A model generated the notes under the pieces. The model saw nothing but the letters and a program-made list of their open reading frames with translations, was not told where the DNA came from and searched no databases. Positions 579 to 12,662 of a stretch of 64,000 bases of DNA are shown in pieces. Source of the DNA: Klenkia soli (GTDB taxonomy: Bacteria > Actinomycetota > Actinomycetes > Mycobacteriales > Geodermatophilaceae). The position numbers and the translations under genes were made by a program. The number at the start of each line of letters is the position of its first letter. Position 1 is the stretch's first letter. The DNA is taken from the NCBI RefSeq assembly GCF_900103975.1, contig NZ_FNIR01000001.1:310001-374000 (forward strand). The letters are read 5' to 3'.

Positions 579-2426
579 GTGCCCGCGCGCCCCCCTGCCC
601 CTGCCCGGCCAACCGCCGCGGCGCGGACCCCCGAGGAGCTCGCCCGGGCGAAGGCGCGCGCGCGGGCCCTGGCCAGGAAGAAGGCCGCCGCCGCGCGCGC
701 GCAGCGCAAGGCCGAGGCGAGGGCCCGCCGGGTGGCGGCCCTGCGCCGGTGGACGCACCGCACCGGTGCGGTCGGCAGTGCCCTGGCCGCCGTCCTCGTC
801 GCCGCCGTCGTCGTCTCGGGCGTGCAGGGCGAGACCCCGGCGGCCGCCTCGATCGCCCTCGACCCGGCCGCCGCGGCGACCCAGCTGCGCGACGAGCTGA
901 CGGCCACGACCACCGACCTGCAGGCCGCCCGGGTGGCCGTCACCGCGGCCGAGAACGGGGTGGCCGCGGCGCAGACCGACCTCGCGTCCGCGCAGGCCGC
1001 ACTCGCCACCGCCCGGGCCGCCGTCGGCAGCGGGGCGGGCGAGCTGTACCAGGACACCCCGGCCGACCGCGCGCTCGCCGCCGGCTTCCCCGCCGCTGCC
1101 GATCCCGCCCTCGCCGGGTCCCTCGCCGTCGCCGCCGAGCGGAGCGGCCGCCAGCTGGCCGCGCTGACGGTCACCGCCCAGGCCGCCGAGCGAGCCGTGC
1201 AGTCGGCCACCGCCCGCGCCGCCGGCGCCGACGCCGTGCTCACCGCCGCCCGCCAGCAGGTCGCCGCCGTCACCGACGCCGCCCACGAGCGGGCCACCGG
1301 GCTCGACCCGGCGGTGACCGTCGCCCTCGCCGGCCTGGTCGTCGCCCCCTCGCCGGCCGACCAGCAGGCCACCGACGCCGCTGCCCGCACCGCCTGGCAG
1401 ACCCGGCTGGCCGCGCTGACGGCCGCCGGCGTCACCCTGCCCACCGCCCAGCAGCTGCTCGACGGCGACCTCCCGGGCGCGCTGACCCCGGCCCGCGACG
1501 CCTCGGGCGCCGTCGTGCCCGGGGTCGCCGCGGGTGTGGTCGACGGCGCGGTCGTCGACGTCCCGTCCGCCGAGACCGCGGCCGCGGTCAGCTACGCCTT
1601 CGCCCAGCTCGGCACGCCCTACCTGGCCGGCGGGACCAGCACCGCCGGCATCGACTGCGGTGGCCTCACCGCTGCCGTCTGGACCGCGGCCGGGACCGCC
1701 CTGGGCGCCGACCTGCCCGCCCAGTGGGCCGGCGGGACGGTCGTGACGGCCGACCGGCTGCAGGCCGGCGACCTGGTCTTCGGCGTGGACAGCGTCACCG
1801 GGCTGGACGACGTCGGCATCTCCGTGGGCGACGGCCTCGTGGTGACCGCTTCGGCGGTGCGCCACCAGGTCGTCGTCGCGCCCCTCCCCGAGGGGGCCAC
1901 CGGCATCCGCACCACCGTGCCCTCCACCACCCCGAACGCGGTCCCGCCGGGCACCGGCGCGCTCCCGGCGACGTGCGGTGCGACGTCCGCGCCGGTGGCA
2001 GCGGCACCGGTCGACCCGGCCTGGGGCGGCTTCTCCAACGGGCGCATCCCGGCGTCCTCGCTGTGCCCGATCGGCGGTGGGCACCTGCTCCGCTGCGACG
2101 CGGCGGTGGCCTACACCGCGCTGGCCCAGGCCTTCCAGCAGGCCTTCGGCACGCCGCTGTGCATCACCGACTCCTACCGCTCCTACGACGCCCAGCAGGA
2201 CGCGCACGAGCGCAAGCCGGGGATCACCGCGGTCCCCGGCACCTCGAACCACGGCTGGGGCCTCGCGGTGGACCTGTGCGGCGGCGTGAACGGCTTCGGC
2301 ACCGCCCAGCACCAGTGGATGGACACCTACGCCGGGCACTTCGGCTGGGTGCACCCGGACTGGGCCCAGGCGACCGGCGAGAACCCCGAGCCGTGGCACT
2401 GGGAGTTCGGCCACCTCCTCGACTGA
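579..2426 (+). CDS. Secreted peptidoglycan hydrolase: NlpC/P60-like domain plus VanY-type D,D-carboxypeptidase
   Basis: The protein has an N-terminal Lys/Arg/Ala helix, one membrane or signal segment ([18 protein letters not shown], about residues 62-80), a long Ala-rich coiled-coil region, an NlpC/P60-like domain (about 335-450) and a C-terminal VanY-type domain. The VanY ligands are intact: [10 protein letters not shown] and EPWHWEFGH, preceded by [10 protein letters not shown]. The NlpC domain keeps the Cys (IDCGGL), but the usual catalytic His of the DHVGI motif is Asp here ([10 protein letters not shown]), so that half may be inactive. I chose the GTG at 579 because GGGGGGAG lies 5-6 nt upstream; an in-frame GTG at 498 would add 27 residues without a clear ribosome site. 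Expected role: trimming stem peptides in the cell wall. Confidence 0.85.
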
Positions 2427-4525: not shown

Positions 4526-4955
4526 CGGTGAGCGCAGCGCGCACCGGTGCCGGCAGCTCGGGCAGGCTGAGGGTGCAGGCGAGCTCCATGGCCGACAGCC
4601 GCACCGGGAGGGTGTCGGGGTCCCAGCCGGTCACCAGGCGCACGCGGGCGGCCGAGGAGGGCCAGACGACGTCGCGGGCCCGGGCCACGTGCAGCTCGGT
4701 GAGGACGTCGATGAGCCGGTCCGCGGTGCTCGCGGGCAGGTCGGCGCGGTCGAGGGCGGCGTCCAGCGCGACGGCGAGGGCATCCCGGTCCGCGGCCGAC
4801 AGCCAGTGCGGCACCAGGACGACCCGGGTCTCCTGCTCGAACACCATCGACATCGCGGCCACGCTCCCGTTGCGTCCTCGGACGGCCCCTCGCGGCGCTT
4901 CCGTCCCACTGACCTCATCTATCGGCAGCGGGACGAGCTCATCAATCCGAGTCAT
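4509..4955 (-). CDS. Hypothetical protein, second gene of the sigma-like operon
   Basis: The ATG overlaps the TGA of the upstream sigma-like gene in a 4-nt ATGA junction, which decides this start over an internal ATG at 4853. The product has 148 residues, is acidic and soluble-looking, with a VFEQETRVVLVPHWLSAADR segment (about 38-57) and a Leu-rich C-terminal half. I recognise no family and no enzyme motif. Because it is translationally coupled to a sigma-factor-like protein it could be a regulator or partner of it, but that is inference from position only. Confidence 0.7.
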   Translation of the reverse strand: MTRIDELVPLPIDEVSGTEAPRGAVRGRNGSVAAMSMVFEQETRVVLVPHWLSAADRDALAVALDAALDRADLPASTADRLIDVLTELHVARARDVVWPSSAARVRLVTGWDPDTLPVRLSAMELACTLSLPELPAPVRAALTGGRSV

Positions 4956-6022
4956 CCGGCCAGTTCCAGCAGCCGGTCCTTGAGCACCCGCTCGGCCCGG
5001 TCGGCGTGCACGTTCATGTTCCGCACCGAGGTGCCGAGGTCGGCCGACAGCTGCGTCTTGGTCTGCCCGCCCCACGTCGTCAGGTACCAGGTGACCCAGC
5101 CCAGCACGTTGGGCTGGCCCGCGCGCTGGTCGGGGCGGGCGGTGACGTCGGGGGCGCATGCCGCGGTGAGGGCGTGGGAGAGCAGCGTCTGCTCGGCCTC
5201 CCCGAGGATCTCGTCGGGCGCCTGCGCGGTGTCGGGCAGCAGGTGGTCGGCACCGTCGGGCACGCCGTCCAGGGACTGCAGGTTGCGCAGCCCGTTCAGC
5301 GTCGCCACCGACTGGGCGTTCTTGCGCAGCACCGCCACGCTCTGCCCCAGCAGCTCGGCGAGCTCGCGCTCGGTGGGCCGGCGCTGGTGCTCGGTGACGA
5401 AGGCGGCGATCGCCTTCTGCTGCTTGTTCTCCGTGTCGGTCGCGGTCCGGCCGAAGGCGGCCCGGCCCAGGTCGTGCACCCACTTGGACAGCTGCGTGGC
5501 CAGGAAGGCGCCGAACGGGACGCCCTTGGTCTCGTCGTACTGCGCGACGGCCTTGAGGACCCACTCGCTGACCTGCTGCACGACGTCGTCGTTGTCCGGG
5601 ATGTGCAGCCGGATCGTGCTCATGTTGCGCTGCAGCCGCTTCAGGCTGACCGGTCCGTAGTGCCGGCACAGGTCGGCCAGGAACTGCGGCGGGAGGTCGC
5701 GCGGGGCCCGGCGGCGGACGCCGCTCTCGGCGCGCAGACCGATCGTCCGGTGCCCGTGGACGGCGCACCAGTTCTTGACCAGCGCCGACAGCGTCGCCGC
5801 GGTGCCCGCGTCGCCGTCGACGCGGTAGAGGCCCTCGCCCTCGTCGAGGGTCACCGTGACCCCGGCGGGCAGCGCCTGGCGGAACTCCCCCAGCGGGAGC
5901 TCGCGCTCCGTGCGGAAGTGCACCCGGTCGCGCAGCGTGATCGGGGTGGAGGCCCAGGCCTCGTCCTCGGTGATGCCCCCGAAGACCAGGGGTGGGTGGG
6001 ACCTGCGCTGCGGCTCGGACAC
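4952..6022 (-). CDS. Divergent sigma-70-family-like protein
   Basis: The product has 356 residues. The middle resembles sigma region 2 (VAQYDETKGVPFGAFLATQ, then SKWVHDLGRA), where FliA/SigB-type sigmas have a YDP..G..F..YA....RGA..DELR pattern. It is followed by a region-3-like stretch (FVTEHQRRPTERELAELLG) and a C-terminal helix-turn-helix-like stretch (GQTKTQLSADLGTSVRNMN). The first 120 residues are unlike any sigma region I know. The start is GTG with AGGAG about 8 nt upstream. Region 2.4 is not evident, so it may be a divergent sigma or a sigma-derived regulator. It heads a three-gene overlapping unit next to the flagellar cluster. Confidence 0.6.
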   Translation of the reverse strand: MSEPQRRSHPPLVFGGITEDEAWASTPITLRDRVHFRTERELPLGEFRQALPAGVTVTLDEGEGLYRVDGDAGTAATLSALVKNWCAVHGHRTIGLRAESGVRRRAPRDLPPQFLADLCRHYGPVSLKRLQRNMSTIRLHIPDNDDVVQQVSEWVLKAVAQYDETKGVPFGAFLATQLSKWVHDLGRAAFGRTATDTENKQQKAIAAFVTEHQRRPTERELAELLGQSVAVLRKNAQSVATLNGLRNLQSLDGVPDGADHLLPDTAQAPDEILGEAEQTLLSHALTAACAPDVTARPDQRAGQPNVLGWVTWYLTTWGGQTKTQLSADLGTSVRNMNVHADRAERVLKDRLLELAG

Positions 6023-6062
6023 CGGGTGACTCCTGTCGTCGGGTCGGGATCTCGGGGAAGAC

Positions 6063-6091
6063 GGACCGCTCCGGCGCTGCCGGTGCGGTCC
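6063..6091 (-). terminator. Strong stem-loop between two minus-strand genes
   Basis: Arms of 7 bp (GGACCGC/GCGGTCC) and 5 bp (CCGGC/GCCGG) are separated by one T-T mismatch and close on a 3-nt loop. It lies about 70 nt downstream of the stop at 6160 and about 40 nt upstream of the sigma-like gene's start. It could terminate the upstream gene or be a 5' leader structure of the sigma-like gene. There is no T-run. Confidence 0.4.
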
Positions 6092-6159
6092 GCGGGATCG
6101 CGTCTCGGTGAGAGGACGAGGTGCGATGTCGTGCAGGTGGGGCGCTGACCCGCGAGGGG

Positions 6160-6808: not shown

Positions 6809-7105
6809 TCACGCCAACGAACGGACCGCCGTGTCGCCGGTGTCGACGGCCTTCGGCGTGCTTGCCGTCGGGGACCGGGTGCCGCCCAGGGCAGCGGTGA
6901 GCGCACCCACCGCGTCGGCCGCCACCCGGACGGCCAGCCGACGCGCGGCGGCGATCTGCTCGTAGACCTCCTCGCGGTGGATGGACACCTCGCGGGGGGC
7001 CTTGAAGCCGAGCCGGACGGTGTTGCCGCGGACCTCGACGACGTGCACCTCGATGTCGTCTCCGATGCGGATGGTCTCGCCGATGTTGCGGGTGAGCGTG
7101 AGCAC
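6809..7105 (-). CDS. csrA: Carbon storage regulator CsrA (translational repressor)
   Basis: CsrA is a small RNA-binding dimer that blocks translation by binding GGA motifs in mRNA leaders; in Gram-positives the flagellin mRNA is the classical target. Residues 1-52 carry the family core: VLTLTRNIGETIRIGDDI, VRLGFKAPREVSIHREEVY. I chose GTG 7105 because GGAGGGG lies 5 nt upstream and homology starts at this codon; an upstream in-frame start at 7213 would add unrelated residues. The protein is about 98 residues, longer than the usual 60-75, with an Ala-rich C-terminal tail. It lies downstream of flgL as in Bacillus, but the FliW antagonist gene that usually accompanies it is not in the window. 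Confidence 0.92.
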   Translation of the reverse strand: MLTLTRNIGETIRIGDDIEVHVVEVRGNTVRLGFKAPREVSIHREEVYEQIAAARRLAVRVAADAVGALTAALGGTRSPTASTPKAVDTGDTAVRSLA

Positions 7106-7244
7106 CTGGACCCCTCCATGGGTGTCGGTGACCGGCCGGTCCCGGCCGGGGGCGAGCGCGACCTGCGCCGTCTCCCCCATGATCGGCATCCTGGCAACAG
7201 GGCCGGTCACCACTGGGGTCAGCGGGGCAGGGCGGGTCGATGAG

Positions 7245-8130: not shown

Positions 8131-9546
8131 TCACCTGCCGACCAATCCGGTCTTGTTGATCAGGACGTCGAGCATCTCGTCCATGGCCGAGATGACCCGG
8201 CCCATGGCGGCGTAGGACTGCTTGAAGGTCAGCATGTTCGTCATCTCCTCGTCGAGGCTCACCCCGCTAATCGACTGCCGGGAGGCGTCGATCTGGGTCA
8301 CGATCGCCTCGGAGGACGCGGCGGTGGCGGTGGCCGCCGCTGCCGAGACCCCCATCCGCGTGATCATCGAGCGGTAGGTGGCGTCCGGGCCGGTCGTGGA
8401 CTGCGCGAGCTGGGCGATCTTGTCGGCGTTGCCGCCGTCGGCCGCGGCCTTGCCCTGGGCGTCCAGGCCGGTCACCTTGGAGGCGGCCAGCAGGTTGCCG
8501 TCGGTGAAGGCCAGCGCGATGTTCGCCGCGGTGACCGTCGTGCTGCCGTCGGTGGTGCCGAACAGCGGCGTCCCCGGGTTGCCGTTCTTGTCGCCGCCGG
8601 CGACCTGGAGGGCGTTCACCGACGACGCGATCGAGGCGGCCACGGTGTCCAGCTCGGTGCGCAGACCCGGCAGGACCGAGTTCAGGGCCGTGACCTGACC
8701 GCCCATCTGCCCGCCCGCGGATATCTGCCCACCGGGGGTAGCCCACAGGGCGACCGTCCCCGTGGCCCCGCCGGGCGAGGCAGCCGGACCGGTGAAGGAG
8801 ACCGTGCTCGCGTTCTTGCCCGACACCAGGGTCGCCCCGCCGACGACGACGTCGACGCTGCCGTCCTCCTTCGGGATCCCGGTGGCCCCGATGGTGTCGG
8901 CGAGCGTGCCGATGAGGACGTCCCGCTTGTCCTGGAGCTCGTTGGAGTCCAGGCCGTTGGCGGTGGCGGCCATGATCGAGCGGTTGAGCTCGGCGATCTG
9001 GGTCGTCGCGGAGTTCACGACGGTGAGCGAGTCGGCGACGTCCACCCGGGTGGAGTTCCACTGGGCGTCCAGCGCCTTGGCCGTGCTGGTGAGGCTGTTG
9101 ACCACCGAGCCGCTGGCCGCGATGACCGCGGTGCGGGCAGCCGGCTCGGTCGGGGTGCTGGCCAGCTGGCCCCACTTGGCCCAGGAGGAGCTCAGCGTGC
9201 TCGACAGCCCGGTGGTGCCCGGCTCGTTGAACGACAGCTCGGCCTGCGACCAGGTCGTGTCCAGCGCTGCGGCCTGGGCCGAGATCCCGTGCTCGAGCTG
9301 CCCGCGGCGCTCGAGGAAGGCGTCCCGGATCCGGGTGACCTTGTCCGCCGTCACGCCCTCGCCGACGCCGGAGGACGTCGCGTAGAGGCCGGAGATGGAG
9401 GACGCGGACAGCGACTGGAGGTCGGCGCGCTGCCGGGTGTAGCCGACGGTGGCCGAGTTGGCGACGTTCTGCGCGGTGACCTCGAGGGCCCGCTGCTGGG
9501 CCGACAGCGCGTGGGAGGCGACCCGCAGCGCGGAGAAGCCGCTCAC
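8131..9546 (-). CDS. flgK: Flagellar hook-associated protein FlgK (HAP1)
   Basis: FlgK is the first junction protein between hook and filament. Residues 1-40 contain FSALRVASHALSAQQRALEV and AQNVANSATVGYTRQRADL, the rod/hook family N-terminal motif. The C-terminus ends with SLDEEMTNMLTFKQSYAAMG and VISAMDEMLDVLINKTG, diagnostic for FlgK. The length is 471 residues. The GTG start overlaps the flgN stop (GTGA), showing tight coupling to its chaperone gene. It is predicted to be secreted by the flagellar export apparatus rather than by a signal peptide. Confidence 0.95.
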   Translation of the reverse strand: MSGFSALRVASHALSAQQRALEVTAQNVANSATVGYTRQRADLQSLSASSISGLYATSSGVGEGVTADKVTRIRDAFLERRGQLEHGISAQAAALDTTWSQAELSFNEPGTTGLSSTLSSSWAKWGQLASTPTEPAARTAVIAASGSVVNSLTSTAKALDAQWNSTRVDVADSLTVVNSATTQIAELNRSIMAATANGLDSNELQDKRDVLIGTLADTIGATGIPKEDGSVDVVVGGATLVSGKNASTVSFTGPAASPGGATGTVALWATPGGQISAGGQMGGQVTALNSVLPGLRTELDTVAASIASSVNALQVAGGDKNGNPGTPLFGTTDGSTTVTAANIALAFTDGNLLAASKVTGLDAQGKAAADGGNADKIAQLAQSTTGPDATYRSMITRMGVSAAAATATAASSEAIVTQIDASRQSISGVSLDEEMTNMLTFKQSYAAMGRVISAMDEMLDVLINKTGLVGR

Positions 9547-10028
9547 AGCGAGCCGTCCAGGGTCATCGAGCGGCTGTCGCGACCGGCGGTGCGACCGTTC
9601 GCCGTGTAGGTGCGGGTGCCGTCGGGACGGACCGACTGCAACGCCTGGTCGATGGCGGCGAGCCCCTGCTGGACGAGCTCCCGGTTGGCGTCGGAGAGCC
9701 CGCGCAGGTCGGCCACCAGCAGCAGCAGGGCCTCGTGGTGCTTGACCAGCAGGTCGTCCCACGGCGCCGGGGCGTGTGCGGCGATGGTGCGCAGCGAGGG
9801 GTCGGCGTCCAGGCCCAGGCCGGCCGCGATCACCTCGCCGACCGCGGCGCGCTCCACCTCGAGGGTGCGCAGCTGCTCGAGGACGACCTCGATCTCGTGC
9901 GCGATCCGGGGCAGCCAGCGGTTCTTGCCGGAGATGATCAGGTACTGCTTCTCCTCGGCCTTGAAGAGGAGCAGGTCCAGGAGCTCCTGCTCGCGCCAGA
10001 GCAGGGTCGACAGGTGCTGGAAGTCCAC
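9543..10028 (-). CDS. flgN: FlgN-like export chaperone for FlgK/FlgL
   Basis: This 161-residue, mostly helical protein sits directly before flgK with a 4-nt overlap, the standard place for FlgN. The sequence starts with MDFQHLSTLLWREQELLDLL and continues with LEQLRTLEVERAAVG, fitting the FlgN helical bundle with a LLxxEqeLLdlL signature. FlgN-type chaperones hold FlgK and FlgL in the cytoplasm before export. The start is GTG with GAGAGGAG about 6 nt upstream. The name rests on position and helix pattern more than on strict motifs. Confidence 0.82.
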   Translation of the reverse strand: MDFQHLSTLLWREQELLDLLLFKAEEKQYLIISGKNRWLPRIAHEIEVVLEQLRTLEVERAAVGEVIAAGLGLDADPSLRTIAAHAPAPWDDLLVKHHEALLLLVADLRGLSDANRELVQQGLAAIDQALQSVRPDGTRTYTANGRTAGRDSRSMTLDGSL

Positions 10029-10088
10029 CGCGTGCTCCTCTCGTCGTCGCCGTCCCGCGGTGCGGCTGCACCCCGGTTCTCGACGATT

Positions 10089-10117
10089 GCTTCGGCAGCA
10101 CCCCCGAGGGGCTCAAG
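10089..10117 (-). promoter_or_regulatory. Candidate sigma-28-type promoter for flgN-flgK-flgL
   Basis: Read on the minus strand: CTTGAG, 15 nt, GCCGAAGC. The -10 matches the sigma-28 GCCGATAA class in five or six positions. The -35 occupies exactly the six bases used on the plus strand as CTCAAG for the fliA promoter. The leader to the flgN start would be about 55 nt. Confidence 0.45.
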
Positions 10118-10140
10118 TCGAAGCACGAAGTTGCCGAGAG
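10112..10140 (+). promoter_or_regulatory. Candidate sigma-28-type promoter P1 for the fliA-type sigma gene
   Basis: CTCAAG, 15 nt, GCCGAGAG. The same hexamer and a similar spacing precede fliC and fliD, which are normal sigma-28 targets, so autoregulation of the sigma gene is suggested. Confidence 0.6.
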
Positions 10141-10143
10141 GGG

Positions 10144-10172
10144 GTCAGGTGTGACGCCTGGGACGCCGAGAT
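10144..10172 (+). promoter_or_regulatory. Candidate sigma-28-type promoter P2 for the fliA-type sigma gene
   Basis: GTCAGG, 15 nt, GCCGAGAT. The -10 box ends 8 nt before the GTG at 10181, so a transcript from here would be leaderless or nearly so. The same layout recurs at fliM and flhA. Confidence 0.5.
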
Positions 10173-10180
10173 AGAGCTTC

Positions 10181-11086
10181 GTGAACCCCCCTCGCCCGTC
10201 GCCTCCCCCGGCGGGTCCTGCAGCGCGGCGCAGCGATGCCGATGCGCTGGTCACCGCGCACCTGGCCCTGGCCCAGTACGCGGTGAACGCCGTCGCCGCA
10301 CGGATCTCGCTGCCGGCCCACGTCAGCCGCGACGACCTGCTCTCCTGCGCGCAGGTCGCGCTGGTCGAGGTCGCCCGCCGGTTCGACCCGGCCGCCGGGG
10401 CCACCTTCGCGACCTACGCCCTCCCCCGCCTGCAGGGCGCTGTCCTCGACGAGCTCCGGTCCGGCGACTGGGCCAGCCGCTCGGTGCGCGCAGCTGCCCG
10501 CCGGTCCGACGCGGCGGCCGACGTGCTGGCCGCCCGGTTGGGCCGCCCCCCGACGCGGGCCGAGCTCGCCGCCGAGCTCGGGGTGCCCACGCAGGAGCTG
10601 TCCGCCCTGCAGGTCGACGTGCACCGTGCCGTCCTGGTCAGCATCGACGCCGAGACCAACGACGAGGGCGGGACGTTCGACCTGCCGTCGCCCGGGGACT
10701 CCCCCGAGCGCGCCGTGGTCAACAGCGAGCGGGCCCGTCACCTCCACGAAGCGCTGGCCGCGCTGCCCGACCGGCTCGGCGAGGTGGTCGAGCGCAGTTT
10801 CTTCGGTGACGAATCACTGACCGACATCGCGGTCGACCTCGGGGTGACCCTCTCCCGCGTCTCGCAGATGCGTGCCCGGGCGCTGACCCTGCTGCACGCC
10901 GCGATGAGCGAGGTGTGGGAGGGCCGGGCCGTCGTCGCCGCCGGCGGTGTGCGGGCCCGCAACCAGCAGACCAGCTACGTGCAGCAGGTCGCCACCCGCA
11001 GCCGGCCGCACGTCGGCCGGGCCATGTACCCCCCGCCGCCGCGCTCCGGGGCGGCGGTGCGGGCGGCCTTCCACCGGCCCGCCTGA
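10181..11086 (+). CDS. fliA: Flagellar/WhiG-type RNA polymerase sigma factor (sigma-28 family)
   Basis: This factor directs RNA polymerase to flagellar promoters. Region 2 is clear: HLALAQYAVNAVAARI, VSRDDLLSCAQVALVEVA, RRFDPAAGATFATYALPRLQ and GAVLDELRSGDW. Region 3 follows (LGRPPTRAELAAELGV), then region 4 with a helix-turn-helix (LTDIAVDLGVTLSRVSQMRA, about residues 208-228). At 301 residues it is slightly longer than FliA (about 240-270) because of a basic, Pro-rich C-terminal tail. It could equally be named WhiG, but its place between flgN and fliC argues for a motility role. The start is GTG with no good Shine-Dalgarno sequence, consistent with a leaderless transcript from P2. Confidence 0.88.
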   Translation: MNPPRPSPPPAGPAARRSDADALVTAHLALAQYAVNAVAARISLPAHVSRDDLLSCAQVALVEVARRFDPAAGATFATYALPRLQGAVLDELRSGDWASRSVRAAARRSDAAADVLAARLGRPPTRAELAAELGVPTQELSALQVDVHRAVLVSIDAETNDEGGTFDLPSPGDSPERAVVNSERARHLHEALAALPDRLGEVVERSFFGDESLTDIAVDLGVTLSRVSQMRARALTLLHAAMSEVWEGRAVVAAGGVRARNQQTSYVQQVATRSRPHVGRAMYPPPPRSGAAVRAAFHRPA

Positions 11087-11134: not shown

Positions 11135-11163
11135 CTCAAGACCCGACCCCCACCAGCCGTTAC
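11135..11163 (+). promoter_or_regulatory. Candidate sigma-28 promoter for flagellin
   Basis: CTCAAG, 15 nt, GCCGTTAC, about 70 nt before the fliC start. The predicted leader (about 11170-11232) holds GGA motifs at CACGGATG (11184-11191) and in the Shine-Dalgarno sequence AGGAGGATCA (11221-11230). These are possible CsrA sites. Confidence 0.65.
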
Positions 11164-12634: not shown

Positions 12635-12662
12635 CTCAAGTCCGGGCGCGGGACGCCGATCA
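12635..12662 (+). promoter_or_regulatory. Candidate sigma-28 promoter for fliD-fliS
   Basis: CTCAAG, 14 nt, GCCGATCA, about 45 nt upstream of the fliD ATG and directly after the fliC terminator. This is the best -10 match in the set. Confidence 0.65.

Follow-up and report, generated by a model that had tools for sequence, protein, structure and literature searches.

In the window, by which we mean the entire stretch of 64,000 nucleotides analysed, a flagellar sigma factor gene and flgN are transcribed away from each other and are separated by a spacer of 152 bp. Based on Pfam assignments, the minus strand to the left carries flgN, flgK, a flagellin-type gene in the flgL position and csrA; on the plus strand to the right, the sigma factor gene is followed by flagellin, fliD and fliS. 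The two genes bordering the spacer are:

9543–10028, minus strand: flgN, leading the leftward flgN-flgK-flgL run (Pfam FlgN, 80.5 bits)
10181–11086, plus strand: flagellar sigma factor gene of the FliA/WhiG clade, GTG start (Pfam Sigma70_r2, r3 and r4 over cut-off)

The csrA gene (6809–7213, minus strand) is located immediately downstream of the gene in the flgL position. On the same strand, positions 4952–6142 encode a protein of 396 amino acids with weak similarity to sigma-70 regions 2 and 3, all below the cut-offs; this is possibly a degenerate sigma-like gene within the flagellar cluster.

The sigma factor scored 146.4–147.2 bits against the model FliA_WhiG (TIGR02479), below the cut-off of 189.6 bits, and this was still its best-scoring NCBIfam model. 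Sequence similarity places it in the FliA/WhiG clade, as a diverged member. A divergent FlgN gene upstream of the sigma factor gene was found also in L120, L121 and L126, the three of nine order-level loci from other families on which Pfam was run; therefore, this arrangement predates the Geodermatophilaceae. One of these three loci carries the leftward sequence CTCAAC-N14-GCCGATGA.

Within the spacer, the following elements were recognized:

10112–10117, both strands: shared -35 hexamer, CTCAAG rightward and CTTGAG leftward
10133–10140, plus strand: -10 element GCCGAGAG of the rightward promoter P1, N15 after CTCAAG
10096–10089, minus strand: -10 element GCCGAAGC of the leftward promoter, N15 after CTTGAG
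10112–10122, minus strand: extended leftward -35 TTCGACTTGAG, fitting the family flgN element TCG[GA]CT..A

The original prediction had described the hexamer with its two readings and a GCCGA box exactly 15 nt away on either side, and its sequence, coordinates and spacings were all confirmed. The two readings differ at two of the six positions, hence different hexamers are read off the same six base pairs. From the position of the boxes, transcription would be expected to start near 10146 (plus strand) for P1 and near 10083 (minus strand) for the leftward promoter, with the predicted divergent starts about 63 bp apart.

The consensus of flagellar-type promoters recognized by sigma-28 (FliA) and WhiG is given in PMC2859248 as TAAAGTTT-N11-GCCGATAA. 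The sites in the window resemble such promoters in their GCCGA -10 core, which is present in both directions, in a -35 of the TCAAG type, in comparable spacing and in their flagellar neighbours. Rightward, CTCAAG at N15 agrees with the TCAA or TAAA expected about 14–15 bp upstream of the -10 core, while the leftward CTTGAG has two mismatches and a flank resembling the -35 of flagellin promoters. Departures from the consensus are the distance from TCAAG/TAAAG to GCCGA (15 bp instead of 14), the leftward core TTGAG and a TTCG flank upstream of the -35 in the Geodermatophilaceae. For comparison, two promoter-like sites in the rightward arm of the cluster are:

11135–11163, plus strand: flagellin promoter-like site, CTCAAG-N15-GCCGTTAC
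12635–12662, plus strand: fliD promoter-like site, CTCAAG-N14-GCCGATCA

The flagellin promoters of the family (57 found among 83 loci) follow the pattern TTCGnCTCAAG-N14/15-GCCG, the flanking T, C and G being present in 96, 96 and 94%, respectively. Their -10 elements mostly read GCCGTAA or GCCGTTA. The flank of the leftward flgN promoter, TTCGACTTGAG in the window, equals the flagellin -35 flank at the same position. We consider this match the best evidence that the leftward promoter would be of the flagellar type despite the two mismatches in its core. This promoter may be weak, because changes in the -35 can be costly in E. coli, where single changes lowered the activity of the sigma-28 promoter aer several-fold according to PMC2859248.

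Several searches addressed what would be expected by chance. The three-part pattern TCGGC-N14..16-CTCAAG-N14..16-GCCGA occurs a single time in the window's own genome of 4.76 Mb and is absent from the reversed control, and it arose only once when the 152-bp spacer was shuffled 20,000 times with its dinucleotides preserved. The rightward half CTCAAG-N14..16-GCCGA showed no genome-wide enrichment, with 22 matches versus 23 in the reversed control, and enrichment was therefore dismissed as a line of evidence; the case rests on position and conservation rather than on the motif as such. The leftward pattern TTCGNCTYRAG-N15-GCCG has one match in the genome, which is the leftward promoter described here, and none in the control, while a looser leftward-type pattern yielded 11 matches, equal to the control count, including this site and one at fliD. 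A regulon of rightward-type sites was also considered and discarded, as CTCAAGT-N-TGCCGA occurs at only three sites in the genome and the open reading frames around one of them (L006) have no evident flagellar link.

Conservation was assessed in 84 spacers between flgN and the sigma factor gene, consisting of the window, the best 80 of 94 loci and three congeners; nine of the 84 belong to the window's genus. The leftward promoter, defined by TGCCGA and the -35 element TCG[GA]CT..A, is present in 84/84 spacers of this set, and the TGCCGA of its -10 is invariant in the 81 loci aligned (81/81). Loss of the left GCCGA box in relatives had been named in advance as an observation that would contradict the idea of divergent flagellar promoters; the box is kept in all 84 spacers and the idea is supported. 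The core of the leftward -35 reads TTGA in 67 spacers, TCAA in 14 and otherwise in 3 (n = 84). P1 is more variable: it was found exact in 46/84 spacers, with one mismatch in 7/84 and absent or degraded by the criteria used in 31/84. To judge from these comparisons, both the leftward flgN-flgK-flgL promoter and the rightward promoter look real.

A third box precedes the sigma factor gene:

10143–10174, plus strand: candidate second sigma-gene promoter P2, GGTCAG-N16-GCCGAGATAG, start-proximal

Just ahead of the start codon of the sigma factor gene, GCCGAGA or a close variant is conserved, and in 77/83 loci a GGT precedes this box at a distance of exactly 22 nt. Because of the conserved box and the fixed spacing, the sigma factor gene probably has a second promoter here, and we regard the P2 region as a candidate for such a promoter or for a regulator site. 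The box is retained in loci lacking an exact P1, for instance L015 and L022, and in L120, a relative at the level of the order, its counterpart ahead of the sigma start reads GCCGAGAG, with CTCAAC at N16. The start of E. coli aer was mapped 6 bp beyond the octamer (PMC2859248); by analogy, a P2 start placed 6 bp past the octamer would be no more than a few bases away from the GTG.

The contrast between a leftward element kept in 84/84 spacers and a P1 exact in only 46/84, together with the fixed GGT-to-GCCGA spacing of P2 in 77/83 loci, could be taken to mean that only the leftward promoter is functional, that the rightward CTCAAG-N15-GCCGA is a remnant and that the sigma factor gene is read from P2. 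We consider this unlikely, since all nine spacers from the window's genus, and that of Goekera, have an exact P1, and since the rightward pattern alone arose in only 4 of 20,000 spacer shuffles.

The coincidence of the two -35 elements is a different matter from the existence of the two promoters. Among the 46 spacers with an exact P1, the offset between the -35s is 0 in 5, 13–15 nt in 14, 24–26 nt in 26 and 34 nt in 1, that is, the -35s are separate in 41/46, by 13–34 nt. The spacers with offset 0 are those of the window, L009, L041, G005 and G008, and the organisms having the shared form are the window's organism, its two congeners (G005, G008), Modestobacter sp. Leaf380 and Goekera deserti, corresponding to 4/9 genomes of the window's genus plus Goekera. 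Of the 112 family genomes searched, 19 contain the three-part pattern, but only five (G000, G004, G005, G008, G016) have it at the flgN-sigma locus; many of the matches elsewhere represent one or two sequences that recur in genus g4. Hence, the shared -35 of the original prediction is real in the window and in four other genomes of the family but is confined to few lineages, and the notion of a family-wide shared-hexamer device was rejected (5/46 exact-P1 spacers, 5/112 family genomes).

We think it likely, based on these sequence comparisons, that the 152-bp spacer contains back-to-back promoters of the FliA/WhiG type whose -35s coincide in the window, and that both operons rise with sigma activity with modest damping at most. 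The leftward promoter, universal among the sampled family loci, would drive flgN-flgK-flgL, and P1 would serve the sigma factor gene as an optional promoter, probably with an autoregulatory role. Both sites would be transcribed, and one RNA polymerase at the shared site would exclude another: the shared -35 can hardly accommodate two polymerases at once, and therefore only one direction should be engaged at a given moment. The most likely net effect would be a joint rise of both operons, with mutual damping remaining modest at most. The sigma factor gene probably keeps its start-proximal P2, so that the contest for the shared box need not decide whether the gene is expressed.

The same physical constraint had led to the proposal of a switch or timer, in which the polymerase faces one direction at a time and expression of the sigma factor and of the junction proteins competes and is separated in time. 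The -35 base pairs are indeed physically common and are kept in five genomes, and simultaneous occupancy is very unlikely. However, the -35s are separate in the great majority of exact-P1 spacers (41/46) and an additional box of the sigma factor gene is conserved, and at E. coli bidirectional promoters polymerases compete only when activity is well above basal, i.e. under strong activation, as stated by Warman et al. 2026 (PMC12825309). The competition reading is weakened by this third box, by a holoenzyme that is likely common to both directions and by the E. coli data, and we judge a switch or timer very improbable. Compared with a switch, joint activation of the two sides with slight damping is the more probable outcome, because both promoters probably answer to the same holoenzyme class and P2 may supply the sigma factor gene.

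Different sigma factors could also serve the two directions, e.g. the cluster sigma factor and a WhiG homologue, possibly gated by c-di-GMP via RsiG, with two holoenzymes contesting the shared box. The same genome encodes a strong WhiG homologue (G000:C11:338278-338949; locus L132, ORF 1375–2187, plus strand) scoring 278.8 bits against the cut-off of 189.6, and the leftward core is TTGA in 67/84 spacers versus the TCAA core of flagellin promoters. According to PMC8325347, WhiG shares the flagellar promoter specificity and the c-di-GMP-binding anti-sigma factor RsiG is carried by 16/16 Geodermatophilaceae examined. We rate this two-sigma arrangement as improbable.

As at the E. coli bidirectional promoters of PMC12825309, one short site serves opposite directions and one polymerase would block the other. 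In E. coli it is the -10 that is shared and starts are mostly 10–23 bp apart, whereas here the -35 is shared, the -10 boxes are separate and the distance between the predicted starts is about 63 bp; the locus thus falls outside the definition of Warman et al. (shared -10, starts 10–23 bp apart). In the literature searched (titles and abstracts, with most subscription journals outside reach), we found no description of a shared -35 between divergent flagellar promoters. Another point of comparison is the motile-cell actinomycete Actinoplanes missouriensis, with a likeness in its several sigma factors of the FliA family. Its FliA-family promoters are reportedly defined in Hashiguchi 2020 and Jang 2016.

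Should the shared site do no more than activate the two directions together, it would be a compact intergenic region of an ordinary kind. Split and merged forms in close relatives constitute a natural series with -35 offsets of 0, 13–15, 24–26 and 34 nt, which allows polymerase exclusion at back-to-back alternative-sigma promoters to be related to expression. Furthermore, the comparison provides a family-level account of flagellar promoters in the Geodermatophilaceae, TTCGnCTCAAG-N14/15-GCCG.

All five merged spacers have the same 11-bp site, CTCAAGTCGAA, which satisfies both -35 consensus sequences. Across the five shared-form spacers, the columns of the chosen elements are invariant (30/30, with 16 of the 30 positions fixed by the search pattern) versus 20/77 of the other columns; only the extra bases count as independent support, because the locus search itself required TCGGC, CTCAAG and GCCGA. 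In the split form of other Klenkia species, which reads TCAAGCCGAGTGCTCAAGTTCGG in K. taihuensis, two copies of TCAAG lie 13 nt apart, therefore loss of the few bases between these copies could fuse the -35s.

Among the matches listed, the closest relatives of FliA are from Modestobacter sp. Leaf380 and Klenkia species, and the trees likewise join the window with its two congeners, next to Leaf380 and Klenkia. The window thus belongs to a genome of the Geodermatophilaceae from the Klenkia group. A careful tree of 26 rows requires at least two changes between the shared and unshared forms, with support of 100/99 for the window's clade and 98/96 for Leaf380 with the split Klenkia species. Goekera falls outside the clade of the window's genus in this tree and is sister to it in a quick tree of flagellar proteins. 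The split Klenkia spacers are similar to the split spacers of Geodermatophilus, and this likeness would favour repeated merging over the alternative of a merged ancestor with subsequent re-splitting. A more far-reaching scenario, which we regard as improbable, is that CTCAAGTCGAA arose by merging of adjacent -35s, more than once or once with reversal, and that the orientation of the holoenzyme sets the balance between the sigma factor and the chaperone and proteins of the hook-filament junction, P2 providing a floor of sigma expression. In the flagellar-protein tree, locus L042, titled Bacillus sp. AZ43 (UNVERIFIED_ORG), falls with Blastococcus and is probably mislabelled.
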